24,449 nt of DNA from a virus. Where the stretch lies: positions 1 to 24,449 of IMG/VR virus record IMGVR_UViG_3300042691_009296; one strand, 5' to 3'. A program made the position numbers and the translations under genes. Positions 1-20,341 of the stretch are shown piece by piece; within the stretch, counting starts at the first letter, position 1; every line of letters begins with the position of its first letter. The notes below the pieces were generated by a model. That model was given only the letters and a program-made list of their open reading frames with translations, was not told the origin of the DNA and made no database searches.

Positions 1-3000
1 GTATTGAATTATATGTTCCAGGACAACGTTTCCAAGGAGCATTTGCTGATAACAATTATTATGAACCAGGCGATGTAGTAACTTATGGTAACAGTGCATA
101 TATCTGTACCTTACATGCAAATGATCAATCTATTTTAGATACTGGATTCTTTAGTCTACTAGTACCTGGAAGTAAATTTGAAGGCACATATAATGGTGCT
201 ACGGCTTACCAGTATCAAGACATTGTTAGATATGGCGGATTTTTATACATTGCCAAAGGTGATACAACTGGCAACTTACCAACAAACACCACATATTGGA
301 GTGTGTTAGTTGAAGGATTTTTAGATCGTGGCAGTTTTAATATTGGAACATTATACCTACCAGGCGACATTGTTGCCTGGGGTTCTAGAAAATACAAAGT
401 TAAAGGCAGTGTCGCTAGTGTAACAGGACAAAAACCTTCTAACACAACATTCTGGGAAGTATATGCATATGGCAACGAATACCGAAGCACATATGCTGGC
501 GGTACACAATATTATCCAGGTGACATTGTTTTGTATGGTGGTAGACTTTATGAAACAGTGACTGACCCTCTTGGGGTTGACCCAACATATACTGCAACAT
601 GGACTACATATTTGCCAGGTTTAAAATGGATGGGTGTTTATAGTTCAAGTGCAACATACAAAGTTGACGAAGTTGTTGAATATCAAGGCTCTAGTTATGT
701 TTGTACACAACAAAGTACAAATAATCAACCAAATATTTCAGGAGCATACTGGAATCTTGTAGCACAAGGCAGCAATGATTCTGTAACAACTACTCGTGGC
801 GATCTTATTGTTAGAGGCGCAGTAGCTAATCAAAGATTAGGTGTTGGCCCAGCAGGATCATTCTTAATCAGTGATGGTACTGACGTTAAATGGGGTATGC
901 AAGCACCTGAAGCAACATTCTATGTTGCTCTTACTGGTGACGACACTAATGATGGTCGTACACCTGCTACAGCATGGCGTACAATACAACATGCTGCCAC
1001 AGAAACATTTAATTATTTTACAACAAATGCAAATCCTTGTAGTATCAGTGTATTTGCTGGTGTATATGAAGAATTATGTCCAATCAAATTAGGCAAACAT
1101 GTAGTTATAGAAGGTATGGGCGGCCTTGGCTCTGTATGGGTTGAACCAGACTCAACTAATGACAAAGGATTTGGCGTAGGCAAGTCCAAAGACGGTTCTA
1201 CAAATAACGCTAACAGTGAAGTGTTCCAAATGAACAACGGAACACGTTTGCGTAATATGGTTTTTAGAAATTTCAGCACAGGATCTGTGTTAGCATGTTT
1301 AGATCCAGGTACTGGACCTAATGATTCAAGTGTTTGGATTACTTCACAATCACCATATGTACAAAACTGTACAAACCTAAGTGCAAATTGTACTGGTATG
1401 AAAATTGATGGTGCACTACATAACGGTGGCTATAAGTCAATGGTGGCCAATGACTGGACACAGATTAACAGTGACGGTATTGGCATACACGTATTAAATG
1501 ATGGACGTACTGAATTAGTATCAGTATTCACATACTACTGTCATATTGGTTATTTGGCAGAAAGCGGCGGCAAGATTCGTGCGCTGGTCGGTAACAACAG
1601 TTACGGTGAATACGGCGCTGTGGCTAGAGGCTACAGTCAAAACGAAATACCATTAAAAGGTAATTTACAATTAGAATCTGATGTTATTGATTCTATTGTT
1701 ACTATTACTAATGATGTTACAATCAATAACAGTTATAAAGACGATGACGGCAACATTTGGATAGTAGGCTATACTAATCCAAATATGGCTTCAGGAATTC
1801 CAGGATTAACTGGCGGCGCCAGTTATATGTTCGTAGCTGGTATTACTGCTGGCGGCGCATTGATTTTCCAAAGCACTATTGCTGGATCAGGTGATGAAAA
1901 CAAACCTGGATATTTAAATGCAATTTTAGAACTAGACGGCGCACTATACCTAGCAGGTTCTGTAACAGACAGTGGACAAAAAGGATTCCTTGCAAAATTA
2001 AATAAAACTGGCACTGTACAATGGACAAAAACTGTTGCTGAATATTCAGCATTTACTAGTTTGACCACTGACTTTAGTCAAATTTATGTAGCAGGTAACA
2101 AAGCTGGCGGTGGTGCTGGTGTACTAGAACACAGCGTTGCTGGTATTATTGATTGGAACAGTTTTATCAGCTACAATGACAGCTCTTTAGCAACATTGTC
2201 TGATCCAAAGATTGTTCATGCAAGTCAACCAACATCAAGTACTGACACATATGCCAGCGCAGGCGATGCAAATGCAGCCGGCAAATTATGGGTAGCATGT
2301 AATGATAGTTCAAATGATAGAGTTGTGCTTGTTGGTATAAGCACTTCAGGTAGCTATTATAAATCATATCACTATCCTAATATTAGAGTAAATGCATTTA
2401 ACATTGATCGTGGATCAGGTGACGGCATTTATTTTGTGTTGGCAGGTTACGATTTAAACGGATCTACAAAAAATGCATATGTAGCAAGAATAACTGTTGC
2501 TGGTAACGTAGCATGGCAATTAGTTGATGATAGCGCAACAATAGATACAGAATATTTTGGAGCTCTTCCTCAAGGTGACTCTGTTTATGTGTCTGGATGG
2601 AAAGAAACATCAAATGGTTCAGGCGTAAATGTTGGCTTAGTTAGAAGAATTACTTCTAATGGCAGTGTAACATGGGCTAGAACCTTAGCTGATGCAGGAA
2701 CTAGTGTTGGATTTAGATCAATACACTTAGACGGTGTTAACGTTGTTGTTCCAGGATATGGCACTGGCGATGACATTGTTATTCTTAACGTACAACGAGA
2801 CTTAACTAACGGTATTGGTACTGTAAATTCAGGTACATGGACATTTAGTAACTATGCCACAACGCCATCTAATACAACAATCACTACTAGAGCAGTTGAA
2901 GGTGCTTATGTTTACGCATCAAGTGCAACATTAAATGCAGCCACATATACTTCTAATGTAACTGCTGTATACACTGCGGCCAGTAACGCAACAAGAGCAG

Positions 3001-6000
3001 GTTTTGCTGGTGTTGGTAGGGGTATTAATTTTGCAGTAAAAGGACTATTACGTAAACCAAAAGAAGGTTCCGTAGTACATATCACTGGCGATACGGACAC
3101 TTATTTCTGTGTTGGAGTATCAAACTTTACTGACCCAACAAGAACCAGTGGAAATAATCCAAATTCTAGAGTTTTATTAGCATCTAATAAAGATTTCTTA
3201 AAAGCAGAAGTCATTGCATACATTAATGCAACATATCCATCATTAACATATGATCAAGCACTATGCTCAAGAGATGTTGGGCTAATTGTCGATGCGTTAG
3301 GTGATGATTTAGATTACAACAGTAACGCAAGTAGTATTGATGCAGGATATGCATACTACAACAATTCAAGTAGTTTATATGCAATTACTACACAAAAAAC
3401 AGAAACATTGGCAGCAATCACATACTTAAAAACTATTGTTGATAATGTTCTTAAAAATCAAACACCAGCAACTGTTAGAAGTGCAGTTCCACAATATAAA
3501 AACGGTGCTTTAGTTTTTGAAGCTACTAGTGATACTAGATGCGGTAGTAATTTAGATGAAGTTTACAATATTATTAATCTTGGTGTAGGTGCTGCCTCAG
3601 AAAAGGTTGGTTTAGGAACTTGTGAAATAGCATTAGATCCACCAATTCCTAGCAACAAAGTTCCTAACGATAATCAACCAATGGTATTCAGAGAAGCATA
3701 CAGTCAAGTTCGTATGACTGGTCATGACTTCTTAGATGTTGGAACTGGCGGATTTGCTGATACTAATTACCCAGTAATTATTCAAGAAGATTATACACAA
3801 CAGCCTGATCAAGAACGTGAAGTTTTAGCTGAAACTGGTGGTCGTTGCTTCTATGTAACCACAGACCAAGATGGTAACTTTAGAGTTGGTGATTACTTTA
3901 AAGTTGAACAGGCCACAGGTCGTGCAACACTGAGCTCAGAAGAATTTGACTTATCAGGTCTTAACGAATTACAACTTGGTAGTATTAAAGCTGGTAAACA
4001 AGGTGCTACAGTTAACGAATTTAGTACTGATCCAGAAATGGCAGACAACAGTGACACTGCTGTACCAACTGAAAAAGCTGTTAGAGGGTTTGTTAAAGGC
4101 GGCTTTATGGGAACTGATGCTATTTGGGTTCCAGCAGGAACTACAGCACAGCGTCCAGTAAGTCCTCAAGAAGGTATGGTACGTTTTAATACTACATTGA
4201 ATACCTTAGAATTTTATGATGGTGTAACATGGAGTGCTGGCGGTGGTGGCGGTATTCTTGTTTCTAGTGTAAGCCCAAGTATCATTGATCCAAGTGTAAA
4301 CAGTACTGTAACAATTTTGGGCGACAAATTTACTAACCCAACAACTGTTGTAATTGGTGGTGTTACAATACCATCAGGGTCAGTGACTTATGTTTCAGCT
4401 AATAGATTGACTGTTAATACAGGTACTACAGTACTAACTAGTGTAAGTTCTGGTCTTGTAGATTTAACATTGACCGGCTCAAACGGACAAAGTGCAACTT
4501 ATCCAGAATACATTAGAATTAATAGAACACCTACATTTACAACCAGTGCTACATTAAGTAACGTACAAGAAGGATCTGCGTTCAACGTAACAATTTCTAC
4601 AACTGACACTGAAGGTCATACAAAAACCTATAGTTTAGCAAGTGATCCTAACAGCTTGTTTACAGCAAACGGCGGCCCATTTACGCTAAACACTAGTACT
4701 GGTCAAATTACTGGTACTACACCGTTAGTTGCCAGTGACAGTGCAAGATCATTTACTTTAAGAATTACAGATCAATTTGGGCTATTTAATGATCGAACAT
4801 TTACATTTACAATTCTAAATAATACAGCACCAACAGTAACAAGTCCAACAGCTGGGCAAAACTTTGGTGACTTTGGAACTACTGTTGACAGTACCTATAC
4901 AACTGGCGTAAACATTGCATTTACTGCCAGCGACACTGAAGGAAACACATTATCTTATGCAGTAGCACCAAGCGGTGACCCGGCAGCATTGTTTAGTAAT
5001 GGTTTGTCATTGAATACGTCAACAGGTAATATCACTGGAACAATCACACATGGTTGGCTAAACAAGGCTTATACAAGAACTGGTTCAGTTACAATACGTG
5101 TTACTGATAATGCATCAAATTCATTGTTTACAGATCGTCAATTTAACGTTGTTGCTCGTTGCACATGGAGATACAGAGTATTGTACAGTCGCGGTTATAT
5201 GGGCGGCGGTTATAGAAATAGTGATCCTTGGAATAACGTTAATAGAACACAACACAGCACAGATACTAGCACAAACTTAGGCGACATCATGAGTAGAAAA
5301 GGTTCCTACTCAGACGGAACTTTTAGTGATAATACATTCTTTATGTTTGGCTTACAGGATGCATACGACGGTAAAGACACATTTAGCTGGAGTATGAACA
5401 TGAACACTGATGCTGGTAAAGCTACATTCAATATGAGTATTAGTAGAAACGACTGTGCAGCGGTACCTTATGATACTGTTCGTGGTTATATTACTGGCGG
5501 TGATTCAAACAGCGCATATGATAGAATTGATTTTGCTACTGAAAATATGCTATCAACACTAGCAGGCGGATTAGGTAGTGACTATGTAGGCGGTGCATGG
5601 AACGATACAAAGGGTTTTTTCTGGAACGGTACACAGATTAGACTAACGTTCTCTACTGAAAGTTCCTCAAGTATTTTCTCAACTAGAGGAACACACAGTA
5701 AGGGATGGGCAAGTAAGTACGGTCATTATTACATTGGACCAGCTAACAGTGCAGATAATTTAGCTAAAGTTAGTTATTCTACTGAGAGTGTGGTAAGTAC
5801 TTTAGGTAACTATCCAAACACACAAACACAAGGTGAACACAATACACAAATTGGTCAAGACAACGTGTACACTATTGGTATGTGGAACAGTTCAAACTCA
5901 CAAGTTAATGACAGTTGGAAACTTGCGCTAAGTAATGATACATATTCATTCGGTGTTAACGGTCATGCTACATTACAGCCAAAAGGTAGAGATGGCTGTA

Positions 6001-6029
6001 GCTCAGGTGGCTGTGCAACATTTGGTTAA
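1..6029 (+). CDS. Giant modular tail fibre protein 1 (5' partial)
   Basis: The reading frame is already open at base 3, so the gene starts before the window; ATG 303 is internal. About 2008 residues are visible. Domains in order: five ~50-residue repeats (to ~770) of the form W/Y-x-G-x-Y...Y-x-x-G-D-I-V-x-Y-G-G-x-x-Y, resembling carbohydrate-binding-module 5/12-type repeats; a pectate-lyase-like beta-helix (~905-1680, starting near FYVALTGDDTNDGRT); a beta-propeller-like stretch with G...KLN..G..QW repeats (~1690-2830); a ~160-residue insert (~3130-3615) absent from the paralogue at 11652; a conserved hub module (~3680-4095); a short P-x-G-T...RFNT...W module (~4110-4240); an IPT/TIG-like Ig fold (~4255-4520); two cadherin/He_PIG-like Ig domains (~4520-5150); and a kelch-like C-terminal domain ending in GCSSGGCATFG. 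Such chimeric fibres are typical of marine T4-like phages. Role inferred: long adhesion fibre on the baseplate or tail. The exact homologue is not identified. Confidence 0.85.
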   Translation, partial: IELYVPGQRFQGAFADNNYYEPGDVVTYGNSAYICTLHANDQSILDTGFFSLLVPGSKFEGTYNGATAYQYQDIVRYGGFLYIAKGDTTGNLPTNTTYWSVLVEGFLDRGSFNIGTLYLPGDIVAWGSRKYKVKGSVASVTGQKPSNTTFWEVYAYGNEYRSTYAGGTQYYPGDIVLYGGRLYETVTDPLGVDPTYTATWTTYLPGLKWMGVYSSSATYKVDEVVEYQGSSYVCTQQSTNNQPNISGAYWNLVAQGSNDSVTTTRGDLIVRGAVANQRLGVGPAGSFLISDGTDVKWGMQAPEATFYVALTGDDTNDGRTPATAWRTIQHAATETFNYFTTNANPCSISVFAGVYEELCPIKLGKHVVIEGMGGLGSVWVEPDSTNDKGFGVGKSKDGSTNNANSEVFQMNNGTRLRNMVFRNFSTGSVLACLDPGTGPNDSSVWITSQSPYVQNCTNLSANCTGMKIDGALHNGGYKSMVANDWTQINSDGIGIHVLNDGRTELVSVFTYYCHIGYLAESGGKIRALVGNNSYGEYGAVARGYSQNEIPLKGNLQLESDVIDSIVTITNDVTINNSYKDDDGNIWIVGYTNPNMASGIPGLTGGASYMFVAGITAGGALIFQSTIAGSGDENKPGYLNAILELDGALYLAGSVTDSGQKGFLAKLNKTGTVQWTKTVAEYSAFTSLTTDFSQIYVAGNKAGGGAGVLEHSVAGIIDWNSFISYNDSSLATLSDPKIVHASQPTSSTDTYASAGDANAAGKLWVACNDSSNDRVVLVGISTSGSYYKSYHYPNIRVNAFNIDRGSGDGIYFVLAGYDLNGSTKNAYVARITVAGNVAWQLVDDSATIDTEYFGALPQGDSVYVSGWKETSNGSGVNVGLVRRITSNGSVTWARTLADAGTSVGFRSIHLDGVNVVVPGYGTGDDIVILNVQRDLTNGIGTVNSGTWTFSNYATTPSNTTITTRAVEGAYVYASSATLNAATYTSNVTAVYTAASNATRAGFAGVGRGINFAVKGLLRKPKEGSVVHITGDTDTYFCVGVSNFTDPTRTSGNNPNSRVLLASNKDFLKAEVIAYINATYPSLTYDQALCSRDVGLIVDALGDDLDYNSNASSIDAGYAYYNNSSSLYAITTQKTETLAAITYLKTIVDNVLKNQTPATVRSAVPQYKNGALVFEATSDTRCGSNLDEVYNIINLGVGAASEKVGLGTCEIALDPPIPSNKVPNDNQPMVFREAYSQVRMTGHDFLDVGTGGFADTNYPVIIQEDYTQQPDQEREVLAETGGRCFYVTTDQDGNFRVGDYFKVEQATGRATLSSEEFDLSGLNELQLGSIKAGKQGATVNEFSTDPEMADNSDTAVPTEKAVRGFVKGGFMGTDAIWVPAGTTAQRPVSPQEGMVRFNTTLNTLEFYDGVTWSAGGGGGILVSSVSPSIIDPSVNSTVTILGDKFTNPTTVVIGGVTIPSGSVTYVSANRLTVNTGTTVLTSVSSGLVDLTLTGSNGQSATYPEYIRINRTPTFTTSATLSNVQEGSAFNVTISTTDTEGHTKTYSLASDPNSLFTANGGPFTLNTSTGQITGTTPLVASDSARSFTLRITDQFGLFNDRTFTFTILNNTAPTVTSPTAGQNFGDFGTTVDSTYTTGVNIAFTASDTEGNTLSYAVAPSGDPAALFSNGLSLNTSTGNITGTITHGWLNKAYTRTGSVTIRVTDNASNSLFTDRQFNVVARCTWRYRVLYSRGYMGGGYRNSDPWNNVNRTQHSTDTSTNLGDIMSRKGSYSDGTFSDNTFFMFGLQDAYDGKDTFSWSMNMNTDAGKATFNMSISRNDCAAVPYDTVRGYITGGDSNSAYDRIDFATENMLSTLAGGLGSDYVGGAWNDTKGFFWNGTQIRLTFSTESSSSIFSTRGTHSKGWASKYGHYYIGPANSADNLAKVSYSTESVVSTLGNYPNTQTQGEHNTQIGQDNVYTIGMWNSSNSQVNDSWKLALSNDTYSFGVNGHATLQPKGRDGCSSGGCATFG
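3..770 (+). repeat. Five tandem protein repeats, CBM5/12-like, in fibre 1
   Basis: Five consecutive ~50-residue units carry the pattern G-x-Y/W, then Y-x-x-G-D-I/V-V-x-Y-G-G-x-x-Y, then a W followed by a hydrophobic-P-G or E-G linker. Examples are EPGDVVTYG, YQDIVRYGG, LPGDIVAWG, YPGDIVLYGG and KVDEVVEYQG. Aromatic spacing resembles carbohydrate-binding module 5/12 repeats, so sugar binding is plausible but not shown. Units differ at nucleotide level, so they are old duplications. More units may lie upstream of the window. Confidence 0.7.
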
Positions 6030-6041
6030 AAGAGGAACAGC

Positions 6042-6788
6042 ATGATAATTTATTACAGAGGCAAAGAACAATTAAACGGATATATCCAAACTAAAACAAT
6101 TTTTCAGGGTGGATATATTGCAGAAATTGCACCTAATTCTGAGGAGTTCGTTGAATGGAGCGCATTTGACTGGGTAAGAACAATCCCAGCTGACAACGAA
6201 CAATTTTTAACTTCAAACTTTGGTAAGAAAAAATTAGAGTTTTGGCAAAGTGAAAATGGTGAAACTACTACAACAAAGCGTTCATCTGTTGATGAAAACG
6301 GAGTCAAATGGTCTAAAATCAAACGCGATTTTACACAGGAAGAACATGATAAACTATTAAGTTTTGAAAAAACTGTCTTAGAAGGCATCTTAGTCAGCAT
6401 TTATAAAACAAGAGTTGTTGGAAAAAATCTTTTCCCAACAGATTTTGAACAACAAACTTGGCATATACAAGAACAAGAAGCTAAAGAATATAAAACAACT
6501 GGATCAGCTGGCGTACTACTAAGCACATTAGCAGACGCTAGAGGTGTAAATGTTGCTACAATGGCTGATAAGATACTAGCCAAGTCTGAAGATTTTAAAA
6601 GAAATATTGGTACACTATTGGGTACATTTCAGAGACACAGAAGTACAATTAACGGGTTTGATAAACTAGAAGATCTAAGAGAATGGAGATCAAAACATTT
6701 CGGATGGAATATTTCTAAAGAAAACGTTCCGTTAGATCAATACGTACCACCATTAGACCCCTTAGCTGATTACAGAAAAAACATCTAA
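6042..6788 (+). CDS. Putative tail-fibre assembly protein (chaperone-like)
   Basis: A 248-residue protein beginning 12 nt after the fibre 1 stop, with a good Shine-Dalgarno (AGAGGAAC) before its ATG, so probably co-transcribed with fibre 1. The N-terminal ~90 residues are beta-rich with several Trp (FVEWSAFDWVRTIPADNEQF). From about residue 140 the pattern is Q-x-TW-x-x-Q-x-x-EA...LL-x-x-LA-x-ARGV-x-V-x-x-MA-x-KI followed by a helical stretch with LLG-x-x-Q. That resembles the C-terminal helical segment common in phage tail-fibre assembly or tail-assembly-chaperone proteins, which are often encoded just downstream of a fibre. No catalytic motif or signal peptide is seen. Function is inferred from pattern plus position and could instead be a small structural or baseplate-attachment protein. 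Confidence 0.6.
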   Translation: MIIYYRGKEQLNGYIQTKTIFQGGYIAEIAPNSEEFVEWSAFDWVRTIPADNEQFLTSNFGKKKLEFWQSENGETTTTKRSSVDENGVKWSKIKRDFTQEEHDKLLSFEKTVLEGILVSIYKTRVVGKNLFPTDFEQQTWHIQEQEAKEYKTTGSAGVLLSTLADARGVNVATMADKILAKSEDFKRNIGTLLGTFQRHRSTINGFDKLEDLREWRSKHFGWNISKENVPLDQYVPPLDPLADYRKNI

Positions 6789-6814
6789 ATCGCTGCACCA
6801 CAACTTGATAGGCA

Positions 6815-6822
6815 TATAAATA
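6815..6822 (+). promoter_or_regulatory. T4-type late promoter TATAAATA
   Basis: Exact match to the T4 late consensus TATAAATA in the 50-bp gap after 6788. It is followed by a strong Shine-Dalgarno AGGAGG (6827-6832), 6 nt before ATG 6839. T4 late promoters need only this -10 element plus sigma gp55, so the lack of a -35 box is expected. It should drive the coiled-coil gene and the enzyme genes behind it. Confidence 0.75.
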
Positions 6823-6838
6823 TCCCAGGAGGATTTAT

Positions 6839-7564
6839 ATGTCTATCACAGATCAAGATATTATCGATTACGGACAAAATCATTTATTTGCCTATACTGA
6901 TTACCAAATTCAAAATTATGTAATTAATACAGGTATAACAGATCATAGAAAAACACGCCAGGCTCTTTTAGAAATTGAACAAAGAACCAATTCTATTATC
7001 GATCATGATTTTTTAGTTCGAAAACATCAAGCAAACATTGGAATTAAGAAAGAAGAACTAACTTCTGAAATCAGCGCGGCTAAAAAACAATTAATTCAAG
7101 TTGAAATTGAAGAACTTGAATTTGCATTAAAAAAATGTAACATTAGAAAAATTGCTCTAGAAGAAGAAAGAAATACTTTTTTAAATTTTGTAAAAATGTT
7201 TGTAAAAACTAAAGAAGATTTAGACAAAGTATATAACGATCCAGAAGAAGATAAGCAATATTGGATTTCAAGAATGAGTAAACAGGCTGCTATTGATTTA
7301 CTATCTTATGGCAAAGTTTCTGCAGGTAATATGGAAAGTATTATACAAATGCCTGTTGAAGATCAAGTACAAACACTAGCTGGCGCAATTGAATTCAACA
7401 AAAAAATGGAAACTGGACTATTAGCACTACAACGTAAAGTTGAAACACAGCTATTAGAAGATATGAAAACAAATATAAATCCAGAATTAATCCCTAATTT
7501 AGAAAAAACAGTCAAACCATATGACACGAAAAATCTTCTCGGTACCACTGAATCCAAAACTTGA
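6839..7564 (+). CDS. Coiled-coil protein of unknown function
   Basis: A 241-residue protein with its own late promoter and a strong AGGAGG site, so probably made in quantity late in infection. Residues ~60-125 are dense in Glu, Lys, Ile and Leu and look like a long coiled coil. A second helical stretch lies near residues 180-225, and a single Cys sits at about residue 100. There is no signal peptide, membrane segment or enzymatic motif. The product is not recognised. Position between fibre genes suggests a virion or fibre-associated helper, but there is no direct evidence. Its 3' end overlaps the next gene by 44 bp, which suggests translational coupling to the U32-like/methyltransferase fusion. 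Confidence 0.7.
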   Translation: MSITDQDIIDYGQNHLFAYTDYQIQNYVINTGITDHRKTRQALLEIEQRTNSIIDHDFLVRKHQANIGIKKEELTSEISAAKKQLIQVEIEELEFALKKCNIRKIALEEERNTFLNFVKMFVKTKEDLDKVYNDPEEDKQYWISRMSKQAAIDLLSYGKVSAGNMESIIQMPVEDQVQTLAGAIEFNKKMETGLLALQRKVETQLLEDMKTNINPELIPNLEKTVKPYDTKNLLGTTESKT

Positions 7565-9230
7565 ACTAGACACGTTTGAGAATGAATTTTTACCTTGGCT
7601 AGACCAACATAAAGATTACATTTACGATGTGTATTTTACTTGTAGACTAGCACCCTTTGATCAAGATGCTATGGGTGATGTATTCAGGCGCGGCGATTGG
7701 CGTGCTCTTGTAAACAATGCTATGGTAATTCAAGAAGCATTGAACATACCATTGTCGGCCACTTTTAATAATTATTCGATTGCTCCCACAACTAAAAATC
7801 TTCAAACATTCGTTGAATCTTTTAAACCTTTATATGAAGCAGGTATTAGAACAGTTACTATACCTCATACTATTTGGATGTTGCAGGGCGTAATACAAAG
7901 AGAATTTCCAGAATTAAAAGTAAAAAATACAATATTACGAAACGTACAGCGTCCTAATGAAATAGTAAAATTAGCAGAAGCTGGTTTTTATTATGTAAAC
8001 TTAGATAGAGATCTTATGCGAGATCAAAAACGTTTATTAGAAATAAAACGTGCTAAGGAATACATTAGAAAAAACATATGCAGTGATTTTACAGTTAGTT
8101 TGCTGGCCAATGAAGGATGTTGGGGTAATTGTCCAGTTCAAGATGAACATTTTGAATTTAATTTTACAAGACAAAATTTTGAAGACCCAACATATTTTGC
8201 TGACCCAATTAGTAAACCAACTTGCCCAAGATGGGACAGTATTGACCCTGCGGGTCCTTTAAAGGTAGCAAATTTTCCACCTTGGAAAAAAGACTGGGAC
8301 GAATTTATTGATACACTGGGTATTGATGTAATTAAAATGCATGGTCGTGAGCATGAACCTAGACTTCAAGAAACTATGAAGATTATATCTAGGTATGCTA
8401 GAGGCGATGATGTACTATTTGATGATTTTAATACATATATTCAAGACGCTAATTTAGAACATAAACCTATAAATGTATGGCGTGAAAAAATCAAAACTTG
8501 TCAATTTAATTGCTGGGATTGCCACTATTGCGAAGATGTAGTAGCTAACAAACAAAAAAATAAGTGGGTTACAAAAATTAATGAATCATTGTTAAATGCG
8601 CAGGATCATAAAAGTAATGTAACAGACAAATCTTTAAAAATTAACGGGCTAACCAGTGAAAAAATAAAACATTTTTTAAACAACCTTTGCCAACAAGAGG
8701 ATACTAGATTCCTTGAAATTGGTAGTTATCGTGGAAGTACATTCTGCTCTGCAATTGAAAATAATGAAATTAAAGCAGTAAGTATTGATAACTGGAGCAC
8801 TCCTACAATTAATCCTGCAAGAAATGTTGAAGGTTGGACCGGAACAGAAGATCCGTTAACTGATTTTAAACAAAATATTCAATCAGTTTTAGGTAAAAAT
8901 CAAGTTATGGGATTTAACGAAGATGTTAATAATATAGATCTCGTTAAAATGCCTTTTAAATTTAATGTAGTGTTTTATGATGGCGATCACACATATGATA
9001 GCACACATGGTTTTCTAAATAAATTTAGTTCAGTATTTGAGGAAACATTTGTATTAATAATGGATGACTGGAACTGGGAACAGATTAAAACAGCTACAGA
9101 GGATTGGGCTAAAGCAAATACAACTACAATTTACAAAAAAGAAATTAAAACAACAGGTGAAGATCCTGAAGATTTTTGGAATGGTTTAGGAATTTTTGTA
9201 CTAAGAAAAAATAGAGAGCATATAACATGA
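7521..9230 (+). CDS. U32-peptidase-like (putative Fe-S) domain fused to SAM methyltransferase
   Basis: A 569-residue, two-part enzyme. Residues ~1-340 follow the logic of U32-peptidase-like TIM barrels (YrrO/UbiU/UbiV type): AGIRTVTIPH, an NVQRPNEIVKLAEAGF segment, then VNLDRDLMRD and a Cys-rich segment. Seven cysteines lie at 200, 204, 235, 327, 331, 334 and 337. UbiU/UbiV hold a [4Fe-4S] cluster with four Cys, so a cluster here is plausible but unproven. Residues ~375-569 are a class I SAM methyltransferase (Methyltransf_24-like) with motif I FLEIGSYRGSTF, acidic VSIDNW, and FYDGDHTYD plus IMDDWNW downstream. No strong Shine-Dalgarno precedes ATG 7521. The start is supported because the barrel's first strand (IFSVPL) begins at once and the next Met is about 50 residues in. 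The stop overlaps the halogenase start (ATGA). Substrate unknown; a role with the adjacent halogenase is inferred. Confidence 0.72.
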   Translation: MTRKIFSVPLNPKLELDTFENEFLPWLDQHKDYIYDVYFTCRLAPFDQDAMGDVFRRGDWRALVNNAMVIQEALNIPLSATFNNYSIAPTTKNLQTFVESFKPLYEAGIRTVTIPHTIWMLQGVIQREFPELKVKNTILRNVQRPNEIVKLAEAGFYYVNLDRDLMRDQKRLLEIKRAKEYIRKNICSDFTVSLLANEGCWGNCPVQDEHFEFNFTRQNFEDPTYFADPISKPTCPRWDSIDPAGPLKVANFPPWKKDWDEFIDTLGIDVIKMHGREHEPRLQETMKIISRYARGDDVLFDDFNTYIQDANLEHKPINVWREKIKTCQFNCWDCHYCEDVVANKQKNKWVTKINESLLNAQDHKSNVTDKSLKINGLTSEKIKHFLNNLCQQEDTRFLEIGSYRGSTFCSAIENNEIKAVSIDNWSTPTINPARNVEGWTGTEDPLTDFKQNIQSVLGKNQVMGFNEDVNNIDLVKMPFKFNVVFYDGDHTYDSTHGFLNKFSSVFEETFVLIMDDWNWEQIKTATEDWAKANTTTIYKKEIKTTGEDPEDFWNGLGIFVLRKNREHIT

Positions 9231-10729
9231 CAGAACAGATTAGACACATAATGATCGTTGGTGGTGGAACCAGTGGCTGGCTAGTGGCAGCATACTTAAA
9301 AAATAATTTGCCACCAGAGGTCAAATTAAGTTTAATAGAAAGTACAAAAATTGGACCCATAGGTGTTGGGGAAGGTACACAACCATTTACCATGCAGTTT
9401 TTACGAGAAGCCGGTATTACACCTGAAATGTGGATGAAGGATGCTAGTGCAACATATAAATTAGGTGTTGAATTTGTTGGTTGGCACAATAAACCGTATT
9501 TTGTTGACAACGACACTTATGAAACTTTTGTAATTGGGCCTAATACAACAACAATGCCTTATTGGGTGGACAAAGGCGTTGATAAATTTTTTGATTGGCT
9601 TCCGTCATACAAGTTAGCTCAAGCTAATAAAAGTCCTAAGATGAGTCCAGAGTTAGACCACACACCTGGATTAGTAAGTCCTAGTTGGGACGCTGTACAT
9701 TTTAACGCTTTTAAAATTGGCGACACACTGCGTCAAATGTTAAAAAATAAAATAGATTATTACGATACAGAAATTGTTGAAGTAGATAAAAACGATCACG
9801 GCATTGAAAAATTGCGTGATGTAACTGGCAAAGAATACATGGCAGATCTTTATATAGACTGTAGTGGATTTAAAAGTATTCTTTTAGAACAGGGGTTGGG
9901 TGAACCATTTATAGACTGTAACGATGTATTATTGTGTAATCGTGCAGTAGCAATGCCAACACAGTATAAAAATAAAGAAACAGAAATGTTTCCTTATACT
10001 AGAGCAACAACTATGAATTATGGTTGGCGTTGGACAATACCTATCAGTGAAAGAGTTGGCAATGGCTATGTGTACAGTGATCTTTTTATATCTCCAGAAC
10101 AAGCAGAATTAGAACTTAGACAATCATTAGGCGACTTTACTACTCCAGTGAATCATTTAACAATGAAGATTGGCTACCATAAAGAAATTGCCAAACAAAA
10201 TGTACTGGCTGTTGGACTTAGTGCAGGTTTTGTAGAGCCTCTTGAAGCTACAGGTATTACATTTACGACTAAAGCAGTGCATTTTTTAATGGAAGCACTG
10301 GTAAAATCAAATGGCGTTTGGGACCAAAGATCAAGGAATCTTGTAAACAGTCAATTTGAGACTATGTTTAGCGAAATTGTTGATTTTATATTTTTACACT
10401 ACAAACTATCTAACAAAACTGGCAGTGATTTTTGGCAGGCCTATAGAGAAATGCCTATGCCAGAAGCAGTGCAAAAACGATTGGAATTTTTCGCTACAGA
10501 TTTGCCCAAGCAGATGTTTATGAAAAACAACTTTCAAATGTTTCATACCGGCCAGTGGTTTGAAATGTTATTAGGCAGTGGGTATTTTAAAGACAGATTT
10601 TCTATATTAGATCCTGACTATGCAAAATATGCGGATATGTACATAGATTATCAAAGATATAAAACTAATCAAGTTTTAAACGTATTCCCTAATCACAGCA
10701 ATTACATAGCTGGTTTATACGATAAATAA
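9227..10729 (+). CDS. Flavin-dependent tryptophan-halogenase-family enzyme 1
   Basis: A 500-residue protein, close to the usual length of PrnA/RebH-type halogenases. These use FADH2 from a partner reductase, O2 and halide to halogenate an aromatic ring. FAD-binding GGGTSGW lies at residues 12-18 and GVGEGTQPF near 46-54. Lys78 in TYKLGVEF aligns with the catalytic lysine (PrnA K79). The diagnostic WxWxIP is W267-R-W-T-I-P272. Glu340 in EPLEATGI aligns with the catalytic glutamate (PrnA E346). All expected catalytic residues are thus present and the enzyme looks competent. No flavin reductase is seen in the window, so one would come from the host or elsewhere in the phage. It is translationally coupled (ATGA) to the fusion enzyme upstream. 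prnA-like genes are known in some T4-like cyanophages; the substrate of those enzymes is not established. Confidence 0.93.
   Translation: MTEQIRHIMIVGGGTSGWLVAAYLKNNLPPEVKLSLIESTKIGPIGVGEGTQPFTMQFLREAGITPEMWMKDASATYKLGVEFVGWHNKPYFVDNDTYETFVIGPNTTTMPYWVDKGVDKFFDWLPSYKLAQANKSPKMSPELDHTPGLVSPSWDAVHFNAFKIGDTLRQMLKNKIDYYDTEIVEVDKNDHGIEKLRDVTGKEYMADLYIDCSGFKSILLEQGLGEPFIDCNDVLLCNRAVAMPTQYKNKETEMFPYTRATTMNYGWRWTIPISERVGNGYVYSDLFISPEQAELELRQSLGDFTTPVNHLTMKIGYHKEIAKQNVLAVGLSAGFVEPLEATGITFTTKAVHFLMEALVKSNGVWDQRSRNLVNSQFETMFSEIVDFIFLHYKLSNKTGSDFWQAYREMPMPEAVQKRLEFFATDLPKQMFMKNNFQMFHTGQWFEMLLGSGYFKDRFSILDPDYAKYADMYIDYQRYKTNQVLNVFPNHSNYIAGLYDK
10721..10728 (+). promoter_or_regulatory. Late-promoter-like GATAAATA, 5 nt before ATG 10734
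   Basis: The octamer GATAAATA overlaps the last codons and stop of halogenase 1 (Asp-Lys-stop), so it could arise by coding chance. However, it is spaced exactly 5 nt from ATG 10734, the same as at the gp14 start. In a T4 late promoter the start site falls about 6 nt past the octamer, at or next to the ATG, and the gene has no Shine-Dalgarno. A leaderless mRNA is therefore possible. Confidence 0.45.
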
Positions 10730-10733
10730 TTAC

Positions 10734-11033
10734 ATGTTCAATAAATTCGTATCTAATCAAAGTTTTGAAATATTGCCCGATGTTATTGCAGTAAGCTCGC
10801 CTATTTTCAGCGAATATTGCAGGCTAGCTACAACTGTGCCTTTACTAATGGCGATTGGGCCTAACCCGGACCCAAGAACTGGGCAACCTTATGTAATACC
10901 GTCTAATACTATTTTAGATATTTACATTGAAAATCGAGGCGATAAAATAGGTCTACTGCTAATAGAGGATTTAGGTATTGACAGTACAGTTCAACGTGGT
11001 CGTGCAAGTATCACTATCTTAGAGGCTGTATGA
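10734..11033 (+). CDS. Small protein of unknown function (99 aa)
   Basis: A 99-residue acidic-to-neutral protein. It has a central proline- and glycine-containing loop (IGPNPDPRTGQPYVIPS) and a predicted beta-rich C-terminal half (ILDIYIENRGDKIGLLLIED). No enzymatic motif, signal peptide or membrane helix is evident. There is no Shine-Dalgarno upstream; a GATAAATA octamer lies 5 nt before the ATG. Its stop overlaps the J-domain gene's start (ATGA), indicating coupled translation. Not recognised. A small virion or baseplate component is possible given the late-gene surroundings, but this is a guess. Confidence 0.6.
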   Translation: MFNKFVSNQSFEILPDVIAVSSPIFSEYCRLATTVPLLMAIGPNPDPRTGQPYVIPSNTILDIYIENRGDKIGLLLIEDLGIDSTVQRGRASITILEAV

Positions 11034-11353
11034 TAAATTTATACGAAATTTTAGGTATAGATCCTAGAGCTACTTACGAAGAAGTTAGATATGCTTATCG
11101 TATTAAAGTTATGCAGTATCATCCAGATAGAATAGGTCCAAATGATGACTTTGATAGGATTTTCAAAGCATACACTATTCTCATAGACCCTAACGCTAGA
11201 TTCAAATATGATATTTTGTTTAATTATTACCGAAGTCAGGACGGTGACAATGAAGATGCAAAAATACATACTGGCACATACTATAAAGACATAGATCCTG
11301 CACAATTTAAGGGTGTTTCTTATCCGTTTGGTGTTGTAGAAATCTATAGCTAA
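11030..11353 (+). CDS. Short J-domain (DnaJ-like) protein
   Basis: A 107-residue protein whose first ~70 residues are a J-domain: LYEILGI at the start, helix II rich in Tyr/Arg, the hallmark HPD at residues 31-33, and helix III with FDRIFKAYTILIDPNARFKYD. J-domains recruit Hsp70 (DnaK) and stimulate its ATPase. The protein lacks the Gly/Phe region, zinc finger and client-binding domains of full DnaJ. The ~35-residue tail (ending FGVVEIYS) is not recognised and may target a specific partner. It is translationally coupled (ATGA) to the 99-aa gene and lies between two giant fibre genes. A plausible inferred role is bringing host DnaK to large, repeat-rich fibre proteins during folding. Confidence 0.85.
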   Translation: MINLYEILGIDPRATYEEVRYAYRIKVMQYHPDRIGPNDDFDRIFKAYTILIDPNARFKYDILFNYYRSQDGDNEDAKIHTGTYYKDIDPAQFKGVSYPFGVVEIYS

Positions 11354-11651: not shown

Positions 11652-12775
11652 ATGGGTATTTCAACGATTTCAATTGGTAAAGTAAAGTTTAATTGGCGCG
11701 GCAACTGGGCCGCCGCCACAGCCTACGTTAAAGACGATGTAGTAAAATATGGTCCCAGTGTTTATACCATAACTGAAGCACATACTAGTGCTAGTACCTT
11801 TGCCGCAAATATAGCAAAAACCAGTTTAATGGTAGAAGGTGTGACTTTTGACGGAGCATGGAGTTCAGGTACACTTTATCAAACCAATGACATTGTCAGT
11901 TACGGTGGTGCAATTTATGTTGCATTAAGAGAAACACAAGCAGATATTCCAAGTTCTAGTCCCAGTGACTGGAGTAAATTAGTTGGCGGTCTTGAATATG
12001 AAGGGACTTATTCAGGTGTAACAGCGTACCAACAAGGCGACATTGTAAAATACGGCGGAACCACGTATGTTGCAAAACAAGATACCACAGGCAACTTACC
12101 AACAGATGTAACTAGTTGGGATAGACTAAACGACGGTTTCACATATGTTGGTGTTTGGTCATCTATTGATACATACCGTCCAGGCGATATTGTAAAATTT
12201 GGTGGTAAATTCTATAGCGCACTACAAGTAACATTAAATCATAATCCTACTACTGCTACTTCCTATTGGAATGTATTCTCTGAAGGCATACAATTTATTG
12301 GGACGTATAGTAATGTCACTGAATACAAAGTTGCAGAAGTAGTAAAATACGGTGGGAATCAATATATTTGTATACAAAATACCACAACTGGTATTAGACC
12401 ATCAAATACTAGTTACTGGACACTATACTTACCAGGGCTTAATTATAGAAATGATTGGGCCGTAACTACAAGTTATAATCCTGGTGATGTTGTAAAATAT
12501 GGTGGAAGAAGTTATGTATGTACAGTTGATGCATTACATGTGGACCCAATACAAATATACCCAACAGATACTGTATATTGGTCAATTTTGAACAAAGGTC
12601 TTGATTGGAAAGGACCTTGGAGTACAAGTACTAATTATAAATTAGATGACGTTGTTGAATACAGTGGAAGTAGTTATGTTTGTATCTTAGGTCATAATGA
12701 CGATGGTAGTACTGATACAACTCCTAGCACTGCGGCTACATATTGGCAAGCATTAGCAATAGGTGATATTAGTAG
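11652..12775 (+). repeat. Seven tandem protein repeats, CBM5/12-like, in fibre 2
   Basis: Seven ~50-residue units share the cores VKDDVVKYG, QTNDIVSYGG, QQGDIVKYGG, RPGDIVKFGG, KVAEVVKYGG, NPGDVVKYGG and KLDDVVEYSG. Each is preceded by G-x-W/Y and followed by a Trp about 20 residues later. Two more full units than are visible in fibre 1 (whose 5' end is missing). Rich in exposed Trp and Tyr; sugar binding is a family-level inference. Confidence 0.72.
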
Positions 12776-15700
12776 TCCAATGACCAATACTGGTGATATG
12801 ATTTACCGTAATAGTGTTGGCGGCATAGTAAGACTTCCGATTGGGCCTAGTGGTGCATTCTTAGTGGTTAACAATGGTATACCTAGTTGGGGTTCACAAG
12901 CCCCTGAACGTAACTATTACGTTAGTTTACAGGGCAGTGACAGTAATGATGGACGTACAGTTACTACTGCTTGGCGTACACTGCAACATGCATGTCAACA
13001 GACATTTAATGGTGGACAAGCAAAAATTAGTATAATGGCTGGCGCTTATACAGAATTATGTCCTATAAAAGTGGGCAAAAGTGTTGTTATTGAAGGTGAC
13101 GGCCTTGGTGCTGTAACAATTAGTCCAGAAAATAGTACAGATAAAGGTTACGGTGTTGGTATAAGCAAAGACGGATCTACTCCTAATGCTAATAGTGAAG
13201 TGTTTCATGTAAACAACGGCTCTAGAATTCGTAATCTAGTATTCCGTGGATTTGGCAGCGGTGCTGTTTGTGTAAGTTTAGATCCAGGCTATGGTCCTAA
13301 TGATACATCGGTATGGATCACATCACAATCACCATACGTACAAAACTGTACTAGTTTTACTGATTTAGGCACTGGTATGGTTATTGATGGCGCACTACAT
13401 AATGGCGGATATAAATCTATTGTGGCCAATGACTGGACACAGATCAATAGCGATGGTATAGGATTTATTGTTAAAAATGACGGACGCAGTGAATTAGTTA
13501 GTTGCTTTACATACTATTGTCACATAGGCTATTTGTGTGAGGGTGGCGGCAAAATACGTAGTGTTGGTGGTAATAACAGCTATGGTGAATATGGCGCAGT
13601 TGCACGTGGTTTTAGTCAAAGTGAAATTCCTCTCACAGGTAATTTACAATTAAGTGATGATACACTAAACAGTATTCAAACATTTACTGATAATGTACAT
13701 ATTTTTACCAGCTATAGAGATTTTAGTGGTAATTTATTTTGTGTAGGCCATACTAACCCTACAGGATCAGATGAAAGTAGTAGTTGGAGTAACACTGCAA
13801 GTAGACCATTTATAGCTAAGTTTACTTCAGCAGGCACATTAGATTGGTCTTATACATATACCAGTGCATTTGGCGGTGTTCATAGTATTATAGAAATTGA
13901 TGGACTATACTATGCCGGTGGTGTAATTTATACTGGTGGTAGTAATAAAGGATTTTTATTAAAAATATCAGCAAGTGGTGAAATACAATGGCAAAAAACT
14001 GTTGGCGATACTACTGAAATTGTAGATTTAGCTACTGACGGCACTAGTTTTTTATACGCAGTTGGAAATCACAATATTAATGGCGTTACACTAATTAAAG
14101 TTCAGCCAAGCGGTATTATTAGTTGGAGTCGTACTTTAGATTATAATGATAGTAGTATTAACACTCTTACTGCAAGTAGTTTATGTTACGCTGGTACACC
14201 AACAACTAGTACAGACAGCTATGCTTCTGAAGGAGATGCTACAGCAGAAGACGACTTATATATTGCCTGTCGTGATACTACAGCTAATATAGCAATGATT
14301 GTTCGTGTGAACAATTCTGGAAATTTAGTCACTGCTTATAGATATGGTGATTTTTGGATTAACAAATTACGTTTAGATACAGGTAATGGTGATGGAATTT
14401 ATATGATGGCCGTTGGATATTATGATCCTGCAAGTGCCGCAACAAAGAATCCATTAGCTATGCGTGTGGATATATTGGGCAACATTGAATGGCAATCACA
14501 GTTAGTTAATAGTTTAAATGGCGAATTTACAGATGTATTTCCACAAGGTGATGATGTTTATATTGCAGGATATGCTAACGATAGTGACAGTACACAAACA
14601 TTTAATCAAGGATTAGTAACTAGATATACTTCTAATGGCACATTAACTTGGTCTAGAATAATTAAAGAAAATGCACAGAATGTATGGTTTACTGGGGTTG
14701 CATTAGATGGTGTTAACGTAGTATTAGCCGGTAATTATCTAACAAATAGTGTTATAGCTAATATACAAAGAGATTTAACTAATGGCATTGGAACTGTGAC
14801 TTCAGGAAGTTGGGTCTTAGGCTCAACAGCATTTTTACCAGCTTCTTCAACAGTGGCTATAAAAAATATACAAAACATTTATGCACAAAGCGTTGCAATC
14901 AGCTTAACAGATTCAACATTAACACTAAATCAAAGTCCAGGAATAACACGTTCTGTTAGCGCAACTAGAAGTGGTTTTGCAGGAATAGGAACTGGTTTAT
15001 CTTTTTCAGTAACAGGCGTGTCTAGAAGTCCAAAAGCAGGTAGTGTATTACAGATAGCTGGCAATACAGAAACTTATTTTGTAATTGAAGTGGCAAATTT
15101 TGACAGCGGTACTGGAAATTGTACTATTGCTATTGATCCTGCACTACCAAGTAACAAAACCCCTGATGATAATACAGCAGTAACATTCCGCGAAGCATTT
15201 AGTCAAGTACGTATGACCAGTCATGACTTCTTAGATATAGGTACTGGTGGATTCGCTGACACTAATTATCCCGTCATTATCCAAGCAGATTATACACAAC
15301 AACCAAATCCAGACAGAGAAGTTATTGAAGAAAGTGGCGGACGTTGTTTCTATGTAACTACGGATCAAGATGGCAACTTCCGTGTTGGTAATTACTTTAA
15401 GGTTGAACAAAGTACTGGTCGTGCAACACTGAGTTCAGAAGAATTTGATCTAAGTGGATTGAATGAGTTGCAGTTGGGCTCTATTACTGCTGGCCGTCAA
15501 GGTGCTACGGTTAACGAATTTAGTACTGATGGCACATTCTCTGATAACAGCGATACTGCCGTACCAACAGAACGTGCTACAAAAACTTATGTAGATAATT
15601 CTATTACAGCGGCAGTTGGTGCAGCCAGTAAACTTAAAGTTGGTACAGCTCCTAATGAATCATTAGTTGAGATTGTTGGGTCAGGAGCAACTACGGATGT

Positions 15701-16172
15701 AATAGATTTTGACATTTACGGAACACTAGCGGCACAAATAGCTAAAGAATATGTGTTAGTACCAAGAGGTACAACAATCAATCGACCAGGAAGTCCTGTA
15801 AATGGTTATTTAAGATATAATACAGATATAAATGCATTTGAAGGTTATGTAAACGGCGCATGGAGTGGTATCGGCGGCGGCAATCCATGGGACACAAAAT
15901 CTAGCTCATATACAGCAGTCAATAATGATAGATTGTTTATTAATACAAGTTCAAGCTCAGTAACAATTACGTTGCCTGCAAGTCCAGCAGTTGGCGATAA
16001 TGTAAGATTTATGGATTTAGCAGGAACATTTGGAACAAATGCATTAACTGTGGGAAGAAACGGGAATAAGATTTTTGGGGTGTTAGATGATTTAGTTATT
16101 AATACCCCCGATGCTGCCTTCCAGCTAATTTATACTGGTGCAACTTATGGTTGGAAACTAGCGGAGTTATAA
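11652..16172 (+). CDS. Giant modular tail fibre protein 2 (paralogue of fibre 1)
   Basis: A complete 1506-residue protein with the plan of fibre 1. It begins with seven CBM5/12-like repeats (residues ~1-375), then a pectate-lyase-like beta-helix (~415-665; YYVSLQGSDSNDGRT start). A beta-propeller-like region (~670-1055) with KIS..G.IQW and RVD..GNIEW repeats follows, then a linker, then the hub module (~1178-1310; SQVRMTSHDFLDIGTGG through LNELQLGSI) nearly identical to that of fibre 1. A short RYNT...W module (~1365-1405) and a C-terminal ~95-residue domain close the protein (DRLFINTSSSSVTITLPASP, then LTVGRNGNKI). That last domain is a tip or trimerisation fold common at phage fibre ends. 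It lacks the ~160-residue insert and the TIG/He_PIG/kelch tail of fibre 1. Those distal functions seem to be supplied by the next gene, which lies in the same frame after two stop codons. Role inferred: adhesion fibre shaft. Confidence 0.88.
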   Translation: MGISTISIGKVKFNWRGNWAAATAYVKDDVVKYGPSVYTITEAHTSASTFAANIAKTSLMVEGVTFDGAWSSGTLYQTNDIVSYGGAIYVALRETQADIPSSSPSDWSKLVGGLEYEGTYSGVTAYQQGDIVKYGGTTYVAKQDTTGNLPTDVTSWDRLNDGFTYVGVWSSIDTYRPGDIVKFGGKFYSALQVTLNHNPTTATSYWNVFSEGIQFIGTYSNVTEYKVAEVVKYGGNQYICIQNTTTGIRPSNTSYWTLYLPGLNYRNDWAVTTSYNPGDVVKYGGRSYVCTVDALHVDPIQIYPTDTVYWSILNKGLDWKGPWSTSTNYKLDDVVEYSGSSYVCILGHNDDGSTDTTPSTAATYWQALAIGDISSPMTNTGDMIYRNSVGGIVRLPIGPSGAFLVVNNGIPSWGSQAPERNYYVSLQGSDSNDGRTVTTAWRTLQHACQQTFNGGQAKISIMAGAYTELCPIKVGKSVVIEGDGLGAVTISPENSTDKGYGVGISKDGSTPNANSEVFHVNNGSRIRNLVFRGFGSGAVCVSLDPGYGPNDTSVWITSQSPYVQNCTSFTDLGTGMVIDGALHNGGYKSIVANDWTQINSDGIGFIVKNDGRSELVSCFTYYCHIGYLCEGGGKIRSVGGNNSYGEYGAVARGFSQSEIPLTGNLQLSDDTLNSIQTFTDNVHIFTSYRDFSGNLFCVGHTNPTGSDESSSWSNTASRPFIAKFTSAGTLDWSYTYTSAFGGVHSIIEIDGLYYAGGVIYTGGSNKGFLLKISASGEIQWQKTVGDTTEIVDLATDGTSFLYAVGNHNINGVTLIKVQPSGIISWSRTLDYNDSSINTLTASSLCYAGTPTTSTDSYASEGDATAEDDLYIACRDTTANIAMIVRVNNSGNLVTAYRYGDFWINKLRLDTGNGDGIYMMAVGYYDPASAATKNPLAMRVDILGNIEWQSQLVNSLNGEFTDVFPQGDDVYIAGYANDSDSTQTFNQGLVTRYTSNGTLTWSRIIKENAQNVWFTGVALDGVNVVLAGNYLTNSVIANIQRDLTNGIGTVTSGSWVLGSTAFLPASSTVAIKNIQNIYAQSVAISLTDSTLTLNQSPGITRSVSATRSGFAGIGTGLSFSVTGVSRSPKAGSVLQIAGNTETYFVIEVANFDSGTGNCTIAIDPALPSNKTPDDNTAVTFREAFSQVRMTSHDFLDIGTGGFADTNYPVIIQADYTQQPNPDREVIEESGGRCFYVTTDQDGNFRVGNYFKVEQSTGRATLSSEEFDLSGLNELQLGSITAGRQGATVNEFSTDGTFSDNSDTAVPTERATKTYVDNSITAAVGAASKLKVGTAPNESLVEIVGSGATTDVIDFDIYGTLAAQIAKEYVLVPRGTTINRPGSPVNGYLRYNTDINAFEGYVNGAWSGIGGGNPWDTKSSSYTAVNNDRLFINTSSSSVTITLPASPAVGDNVRFMDLAGTFGTNALTVGRNGNKIFGVLDDLVINTPDAAFQLIYTGATYGWKLAEL

Positions 16173-18853: not shown

Positions 18854-20341
18854 ATGAAAATAGTTATTGCAGGGGGCGGAACTGCTGGCTGGCTTTCCGC
18901 CCTTTTTTTATCGAAAATATATCCAGAATTCCAAGTTGAACTCATTGAAAGTTCTAAAATTGGTGTTATAGGCACAGGCGAAGGCAGCACCGGATTATTA
19001 AATGATGTACTAACAAATAGAATTTGGAATTTTGGTTGTAATTTAGATGACTTTTTAAAAACAACCAAAAGTACGCCTAAATTAGGTATTGAATTTAGTA
19101 ATTGGGGTGTGGATGATTATATTAGCCCAATTGATGGTTCTGCATGGAGTAGTAGAAGTCCAGACACAATAACACTACACGCCATTGCTAACAGTATTCC
19201 TTCATACATGACATCTATGCAAGGGCTCCGTGGAGTCAACATGATGACACAGTTTAATGATAGAAAAAATATTAAAAATTCTAGCAACGGGGGTGCATAT
19301 CACTTTGATGGCCAACTAGTCAGTCAATATTTTAAAAGTATATGCAACACTGTAACAGTATATGATGATAAAATTACTAGTTTTAAACAAAGATCTAACG
19401 GCAGTGTGTCTACAATAATTTGTGAAAATGTCATTATTGACGATATAGACATGGTTATAGACTGTTTAGGTTTTAACAGTATTTTCAATAAAGAGTTGCC
19501 ATCAACATTTATAGATTTTAGTAAACATTTACCAGTAAACACTGCTATACCATTCCAAATAGAAAATAACGATCTAACAAACACTATACCATTTACTAAA
19601 TCTAGAGCTATGAACTATGGTTGGATGTGGCAAATACCTGTAGGCAAGAGATATGGTTGTGGATATGTGTTTAATGGTGATTTAATCTCTCCTGAAGATG
19701 CTGTTGAAGAAATAGAAAATACTTTGCAAAGAAAAATAAAGCCAATAAAAACAATAAAATTTACCAGCGGACACATTCGTAATCTATGGAGAAATAACGT
19801 TATTGCTATAGGACTTAGCAGCGGATTTTTAGAACCTTTACAAGCTACAGCAATACACACAGTTATAGCACATTTGAGTATGTTGTGTTTTGACTTTTTA
19901 AATTACGATAAACAATTAGTACAAAATTATCCTGGCAAAGATTTATACAATCAAAGAGCAGGTCAATATTATCATGATTTCGCTGATTTTATCAATTTAC
20001 ATTATCAAACACCAAGAGGGGATACAGAATTTTGGCGTTATATGAAAAATGAATCTGCAACAGACTTTGTTAAAAATATATTATCTGTGTGTAAGGCTCG
20101 AATACCTACACATCACGATTTTAAAAAATACAACTATGCCGCAGGAGCTAGTTTATGGAATCCAACTATTCAGGCTTTAGGAATTGTAACATCTCAAACA
20201 GCACAAAAACAATTAGATTTTTGTCAAATAAAGTTCCCATCAAATATTAAATCTACTTTAGAAAGACATATTGCACTTGTTGAATCTGAAGATTTAATTT
20301 CAGTAGAAGAATTTTATAATACGTATTCTAAATATTATTAA
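18854..20341 (+). CDS. Flavin-dependent tryptophan-halogenase-family enzyme 2
   Basis: A 495-residue homologue of the enzyme at 9227. GGGTAGW lies at residues 7-13, confirming the start because the FAD loop must be near the N-terminus. TGEGSTG follows near 39-45. Lys76 in TPKLGIEF aligns with the catalytic lysine, and WxWxIP is W257-M-W-Q-I-P262. The expected catalytic Glu in the EPLEATGI motif is Gln330 here (EPLQATAIH), a non-conservative change at a residue that contacts substrate in PrnA. It may have another substrate, reduced halogenation or a different flavin-dependent oxidation. The two enzymes are clearly diverged, so this is not a recent duplication. No Shine-Dalgarno is seen; a late-promoter-like octamer lies 5 nt before the ATG. 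Its stop overlaps the stop of the convergent 87-aa gene. Confidence 0.9.
   Translation: MKIVIAGGGTAGWLSALFLSKIYPEFQVELIESSKIGVIGTGEGSTGLLNDVLTNRIWNFGCNLDDFLKTTKSTPKLGIEFSNWGVDDYISPIDGSAWSSRSPDTITLHAIANSIPSYMTSMQGLRGVNMMTQFNDRKNIKNSSNGGAYHFDGQLVSQYFKSICNTVTVYDDKITSFKQRSNGSVSTIICENVIIDDIDMVIDCLGFNSIFNKELPSTFIDFSKHLPVNTAIPFQIENNDLTNTIPFTKSRAMNYGWMWQIPVGKRYGCGYVFNGDLISPEDAVEEIENTLQRKIKPIKTIKFTSGHIRNLWRNNVIAIGLSSGFLEPLQATAIHTVIAHLSMLCFDFLNYDKQLVQNYPGKDLYNQRAGQYYHDFADFINLHYQTPRGDTEFWRYMKNESATDFVKNILSVCKARIPTHHDFKKYNYAAGASLWNPTIQALGIVTSQTAQKQLDFCQIKFPSNIKSTLERHIALVESEDLISVEEFYNTYSKYY

Follow-up and report, generated by a model that had tools for sequence, protein, structure and literature searches.

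In Bacillus subtilis the U32 proteins TrhP1 and TrhP2 (YrrO and YrrN) are needed for the hydroxylation of U34, and TrmR (YrrM), a product of their operon, adds a methyl to the hydroxyl so made and converts ho5U to mo5U34 (PMC6599085). UbiU and UbiV bind [4Fe-4S] and function in the O2-independent hydroxylation of ubiquinone, and a CX6CX15CX3/4C motif for [4Fe-4S] is found in eight of ten U32 families (PMC6747719). U32 proteins are emerging as factors of O2-independent hydroxylation of which few substrates are known, and the phage branch described here, present in 123 cyanophage genome records, has no recorded function. The member that we analysed is encoded in a 24.4-kb virus record of IMG/VR (24,449 nt, the whole of which is called the window) that also has matches to a tail sheath and to virion proteins, and in it a U32-like barrel and a class I O-methyltransferase form one chain. 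Each of the two parts is already known, and so is their pairing in an operon; in the open-licence literature searched we found no description of a fusion of U32 and methyltransferase, of U32 proteins in cyanophages, of the layout of three plus four cysteines or of the fibre and RTX context. The features of the window that concern this protein are as follows.

303..6029, + strand: large fibre/adhesin-like protein, open at its start, with CBM_5_12 and He_PIG matches; candidate substrate
6042..6788, + strand: phrog_1604-like gene in the T4-GC 352 position, upstream in 59 of 64 testable loci
6839..7564, + strand: phrog_1409 gene in the T4-GC 353 position, overlapping the fusion gene; upstream in 63 of 64 testable loci
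7521..9230, + strand: fusion gene, 569 aa; phrog_1458 at E 2.7e-178, profile positions 1-519 of 519
7521..8408, + strand: predicted U32-like TIM barrel, residues 1-296; AlphaFold2 pLDDT 88, best PDB match 5d88 (Z 16.0)
8109..8150, + strand: core motif NE-x-C200-x3-C204-P-x3-EH, residues 197-210; N, E, C, G, C, E and H invariant in 40 sequences and also across phage and bacterial relatives
8223..8225, + strand: C235, the third core cysteine, retained in distant bacterial relatives too
8334..8351, + strand: KMHGRE motif, residues 272-277, with K, G and R universal; compare KIEGR of TrhP, UbiU and RlhA
8409..8555, + strand: C-terminal extension of the U32-like protein with C327-x3-C331-x2-C334-x2-C337; invariant, found also without the methyltransferase, missing from distant bacterial relatives
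8616..9227, + strand: predicted O-methyltransferase domain, residues 366-569; Methyltransf_24, O-methyltransferase structures at Z up to 17.5, TrmR the best PDB sequence match
9227..10729, + strand: flavin-dependent Trp halogenase, directly downstream; PF04820 1.2e-105, PDB Trp halogenases 2e-73, VirX1 3.6e-54

The fusion gene begins with ATG and overlaps the upstream gene by 44 bp and the downstream halogenase gene by 4 bp. Its product gives a full-length profile match to phrog_1458, aligned to residues 51-563, and its N-terminal half is also matched by phrog_36869; both families are recorded as being of unknown function. When the phage collection was searched by tblastn, relatives with less than 60% identity were found in 123 cyanophage records, and the hosts of all 123 are Synechococcus or Prochlorococcus. 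At least 506 stretches in IMG/VR encode relatives of the fusion protein, and a plasmid search found none. In the genome regions inspected the cyanophage relatives are labelled 'hypothetical protein', and in Syn19 and P-HM2 the relative carries the note T4-GC 354 and is preceded by T4-GC 351-353. The arrangement, for which the original prediction knew of no described enzyme, is thus not singular and is that of a widespread cyanophage family. Matches of the family to CytoC_RC, Yippee and PufC were below threshold and confined to few members and were dropped.

The full-length AlphaFold2 model, made with a 40-sequence input, had a mean pLDDT of 87.9, and the N-terminal 345 residues modelled alone had a pLDDT of 88.1 and a pTM of 0.88. 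The predicted N-terminal fold is an eight-stranded TIM barrel, with strands from 6-9 to 270-273, that is followed by a helical, cysteine-rich extension. When the barrel was compared with the PDB by VIA-align, the first match was the U32 peptidase MK0906 (5d88) with Z 16.0 and an rmsd of 3.2 A over 223 residues, which was also the top match in Foldseek, and the runner-up was MTHFR with Z 13.3 and rmsd 5.0. MTHFR, FBP aldolase and other TIM barrels all scored below MK0906 and were rejected as the identity of the barrel, as were PRMT5 and pyruvate kinase, which Foldseek returned for the full-length model as mixtures of TIM and Rossmann folds with an rmsd above 20 A. MK0906 is the nearest solved fold but it is only 11% identical to the phage barrel and lacks a methyltransferase. 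PF01136 (Peptidase_U32) had no match at E<=1 in the fusion protein or in 11 members, and when the N-terminal profile was aligned by hhalign to four U32 proteins of E. coli the result was not significant (probability 2.4%, E 0.02). However, the family profile retrieves Lachnospiraceae proteins with a best E of 1.6e-12, and two of those tested exceed Pfam's cut-off for PF01136. Because the direct hhalign comparison was not significant, the kinship to U32 rests on the fold and on these sequence intermediates, and since the direct sequence tests are weak and yet the intermediates pass PF01136, we call the domain U32-like and not a strict U32 member. Judged by model and sequence, the N-terminal half is related to U32 and lies outside PF01136 in the strict sense. 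That this half would be U32-like, as had been proposed, is supported by MK0906 as the top fold match and by the Lachnospiraceae intermediates, and structure prediction did show the barrel.

The seven cysteines named in the original prediction (200, 204, 235, 327, 331, 334 and 337) are all at these positions and, as had been anticipated, they are conserved among homologues. They are invariant in the alignment of 40 sequences of 44-68% identity, in which C41 is variable, and they are kept in 43 of 43 further fused viral ORFs, in 14 of 14 viral ORFs without the methyltransferase domain and in 10 of 10 close bacterial or MAG sequences; in this tally one contig-truncated row was set aside, and L121, one of the 14, is cut by a contig end. 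Such invariance in aligned and wider relatives argues that the seven cysteines are not there by chance. The four-cysteine cluster had been regarded as a feature of the domain junction but it is retained by proteins without the methyltransferase domain and so is not one. As read from the alignments, the cysteines fall into a core set of three and a set of four on the extension, which is part of the U32-like protein. In 50 more distant relatives, almost all of them from gut bacteria of the Lachnospiraceae, the Eggerthellaceae and the like, C200, C204 and C235 are kept and the four-cysteine extension is missing from 49, the exception being the close relative L269, which was counted twice. These distant hits were fetched by a DNA pattern that fixed N197, E198, C200, C204, P205, E209 and H210 and therefore only C235, K272, G275 and R276 are independent evidence among them. 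The canonical CX6CX15CX3/4C motif was not found in the fusion protein, whose core has only C200-x3-C204-x30-C235, the other four cysteines being in the extension. With UbiU and UbiV the protein has in common the U32-type barrel, conserved cysteines and a similar 'C...C...C...KIEGR' register, whereas UbiU and UbiV are a heterodimer without a methyltransferase and have four cysteines each (CX6CX16CX38C; CXnCX12CX3C) (PMC6747719), unlike the CX3CX30C plus CX3CX2CX2C pattern of the phage fusion.

The C-terminal half is predicted to be a Rossmann-type methyltransferase from about residue 365 to 565, and against O-methyltransferase structures it gave Z values of 15-17.5. When the methyltransferase profile was compared with PDB sequences, TrmR was the sole significant match (E 2.6e-4). 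Methyltransf_24 matches 8 of 11 members, the best at 2e-8, and in the fusion protein it reaches 25.3 bits, just under the Pfam cut-off of 26.3. Thus, of the proposal that this is a SAM methyltransferase of the Methyltransf_24 kind, the methyltransferase part holds by its fold match, and the Methyltransf_24 part holds as a real match that is below the cut-off in the fusion protein itself. E-x-G-x3-G, D423, D487, DD-x-N and E...WNG are conserved, and model and sequence agree on a TrmR-like or COMT-type class I fold with a predicted SAM motif I and the acidic residues of a metal site; which of the conserved residues bind the metal we infer.

In 11 viral loci the two functions are not fused and a homologous methyltransferase is encoded by the adjoining downstream gene (E 1e-55 to 2e-60). 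These are L111, L113, L117, L126, L127, L138, L149 and L160, then L123, and the near-identical L128 and L171; L121 was rejected as a further split form because of its truncation at the contig end. Since the methyltransferase adjoins the U32-like gene in the split loci, the pairing of the two is kept whether or not they are fused. In the tree the split group from L111 to L160 and the bacterial proteins fall outside the fused clade and the second viral split group nests within it. In L113 the U32-like gene comes after a radical SAM gene, and in L171 a subtilase (Peptidase_S8, 1026-2852) lies two genes beyond the split pair, as seen in one viral clade. What the phage protein shares with TrhP1/TrhP2 and TrmR is a U32-type protein genetically coupled to a class I O-methyltransferase, whereas in B. 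subtilis these are separate genes acting on tRNA and in the phage there is one chain with another cysteine pattern, a four-cysteine extension and a context of fibre, oxygenase and halogenase genes.

An upstream fibre-like cluster was present in 63 of the 64 testable phage loci, the label 'fibre-like' being taken from names (sericin-like in Syn19) and from the CBM and Ig-type matches of the window. Fibre genes are always near in this T4-like genome region, and adjacency alone may reflect packing. Downstream, clusters of 2OG-Fe(II) oxygenases, Trp halogenases and DUF6445 proteins, assigned by the matches of their representatives, account for 132 of the 262 genes in the first three positions compared to 37 of 687 genes that lie more than three genes away, a contrast that is descriptive as the loci are related to each other, and 76 of 88 loci had at least one such gene in the first three. 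VirX1, the flavin halogenase of cyanophage Syn10 (PMC8407142), is of the family of the downstream neighbour and not of the fusion protein.

Standalone U32-like relatives are present in a few bacteria; among 299 genomes of the order to which G007 belongs 5 have a close one (weak in one case), and among 345 genomes of the phylum to which G005 belongs 1 has. Three are beside type I secretion genes and one of these is right after an RTX gene. In Desulfocapsa (L338) the order is an RTX gene (PF00353, 1.1e-14), the U32-like gene and a C39/ABC exporter, in Sulfurimonas (L333) the U32-like gene is followed by OEP, ABC and HlyD genes, and L246 has the same gene order and sizes as L333. In L217 DUF6445 and radical SAM/SPASM genes adjoin the U32-like gene, and in a Sulfurimonas MAG (L334) Trp halogenase, HlyD/M50-type and SecA-like genes are within about 8 kb of it, the halogenase (5806-7158) and the U32-like gene (9363-10331) being few genes apart. 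No secretion genes are near the relatives in L337, which adjoins a type III CRISPR locus, and L332, which adjoins TauE and PAPS reductase genes, and the context of these two is uninformative. No methyltransferase of the fusion family was found in the bacterial neighbourhoods scanned. The genes just upstream of the U32-like gene in L338 (3567-4352, - strand) and L246 (1-324) encode similar tails, ...AASWH and ...SSAWHE; the former is RTX by Pfam and the latter is too short to classify. The Lachnospiraceae loci (L221, L233, L263, L288, L290 and others) have tandem pairs of U32-like genes, one with NE-x-C-x3-CP-x3-EH and one without, near GH10/GH5 glycosidase or permease genes, and these recall the UbiU/UbiV and TrhP1/TrhP2 pairs.

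By analogy with TrhP1/TrhP2-TrmR and UbiU/UbiV, the fusion protein may act twice on one substrate, first by hydroxylation and then by O-methylation, and this substrate is most likely a large protein exposed at the surface; to this reading we give a probability of about 0.4. The core cysteines C200, C204 and C235 probably hold a [4Fe-4S] site and the CX3CX2CX2C extension would hold a second cluster; a three-cysteine site could leave one iron open for the substrate and the second cluster could be an electron relay. The U32-like barrel would install a hydroxyl, probably without O2, which the O-methyltransferase, fused or separate as in the relatives, would then cap with a methyl. The likeliest substrates would be the fibre/adhesin-type proteins encoded upstream in the phages and, in the bacterial relatives, RTX proteins that leave the cell by type I secretion; a large surface protein is favoured because these two settings are unrelated and yet point the same way. 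What argues against the two-step modification of a surface protein is that the four-cysteine motif of U32 is incomplete, there being three core cysteines with another spacing, that L332 and L337 are without secretion genes and that the bacterial relatives have no methyltransferase of the family nearby.

The location by tail-fibre genes suggests that cyanophages decorate a surface protein, or RNA, in two steps. The protein could be a fused phage analogue of TrhP and TrmR whose target is a base, such as the wobble uridine of a tRNA, and which by hydroxylation and O-methylation of that base tunes decoding during infection, as the U32 proteins of known role in the cited literature act on RNA or quinone (PMC6747719, PMC6599085), U32 and TrmR genes share an operon in B. 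subtilis (PMC6599085) and the best PDB sequence match of the methyltransferase profile is TrmR. We consider this unlikely, since the fibre genes upstream, the 2OG oxygenases and halogenases downstream and the bacterial RTX and type I secretion contexts do not suggest RNA and make a surface-exposed fibre or adhesin likelier than tRNA, and the 24,449-nt window has no tRNA and no Rfam family. It is quite unlikely that the substrate is a glycan or small molecule, for instance a sugar later put on fibres, with the barrel as a redox partner of a Mg-dependent sugar O-methyltransferase: neither a glycosyltransferase gene nor a sugar-nucleotide gene was seen in those phage neighbours that were scanned and annotated, even though the sugar O-methyltransferases MycF, SpnH and NovP are also fold matches of the methyltransferase, with Z values (15.2-16.2) at most 1-2 units below the best, and the neighbours of distant Lachnospiraceae relatives include GH10 and GH5 genes and permeases of the ABC sugar type.

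The cysteines might instead bind a structural metal such as Zn, which CX3CX2CX2C could hold as well, and the barrel would then be a module without redox function, of a binding or chaperone-like kind, by which a fibre is presented to the methyltransferase; that the fusion gene is tightly linked to two further genes that are conserved in the fibre region and have no known function would fit this. That explanation appears improbable, as the invariant polar residues of the barrel, N197, E198, E209, H210, K272 and R276, look like an active site and the core cysteines persist in distant relatives that have neither the extension nor the methyltransferase.

If the two-step modification of a surface protein is the true reading, one would expect hydroxylated, O-methylated and perhaps halogenated residues on the fibres of cyanophages and on some RTX proteins of bacteria, and a natural role would also be suggested for viral halogenases and for the many 2OG oxygenases of fibre regions. 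A wider proposal, which we regard as doubtful, is that phages and some bacteria have in common an O2-independent Fe-S barrel with two clusters that hydroxylates side chains of giant surface proteins, namely fibres in the phages and type I-secreted RTX proteins in the bacteria; in the phages a coupled O-methyltransferase would cap the product, in the company of halogenases, 2OG oxygenases and radical SAM enzymes.

Some other genes near the fusion gene may be mentioned. The window encodes two different flavin-dependent Trp halogenases (9227-10729 and 18854-20341), kin of the PrnA/RebH type and of VirX1 (Syn10), and amid the fibre and halogenase genes there is a short DnaJ-domain protein of 107 aa (11030-11353; PF00226, 6.9e-16). 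The very long fibre/adhesin-like genes at 303-6029 and 11652-16172 share homologous stretches, fall in one cluster and are each rich in repeated segments of the 'ATYKVDEVVEYQGSSYVC' type. In one phage group, seen in L010, a heme oxygenase gene (12561-13190) and a ferredoxin-dependent bilin reductase gene (13090-13830) are few genes downstream of the fusion.
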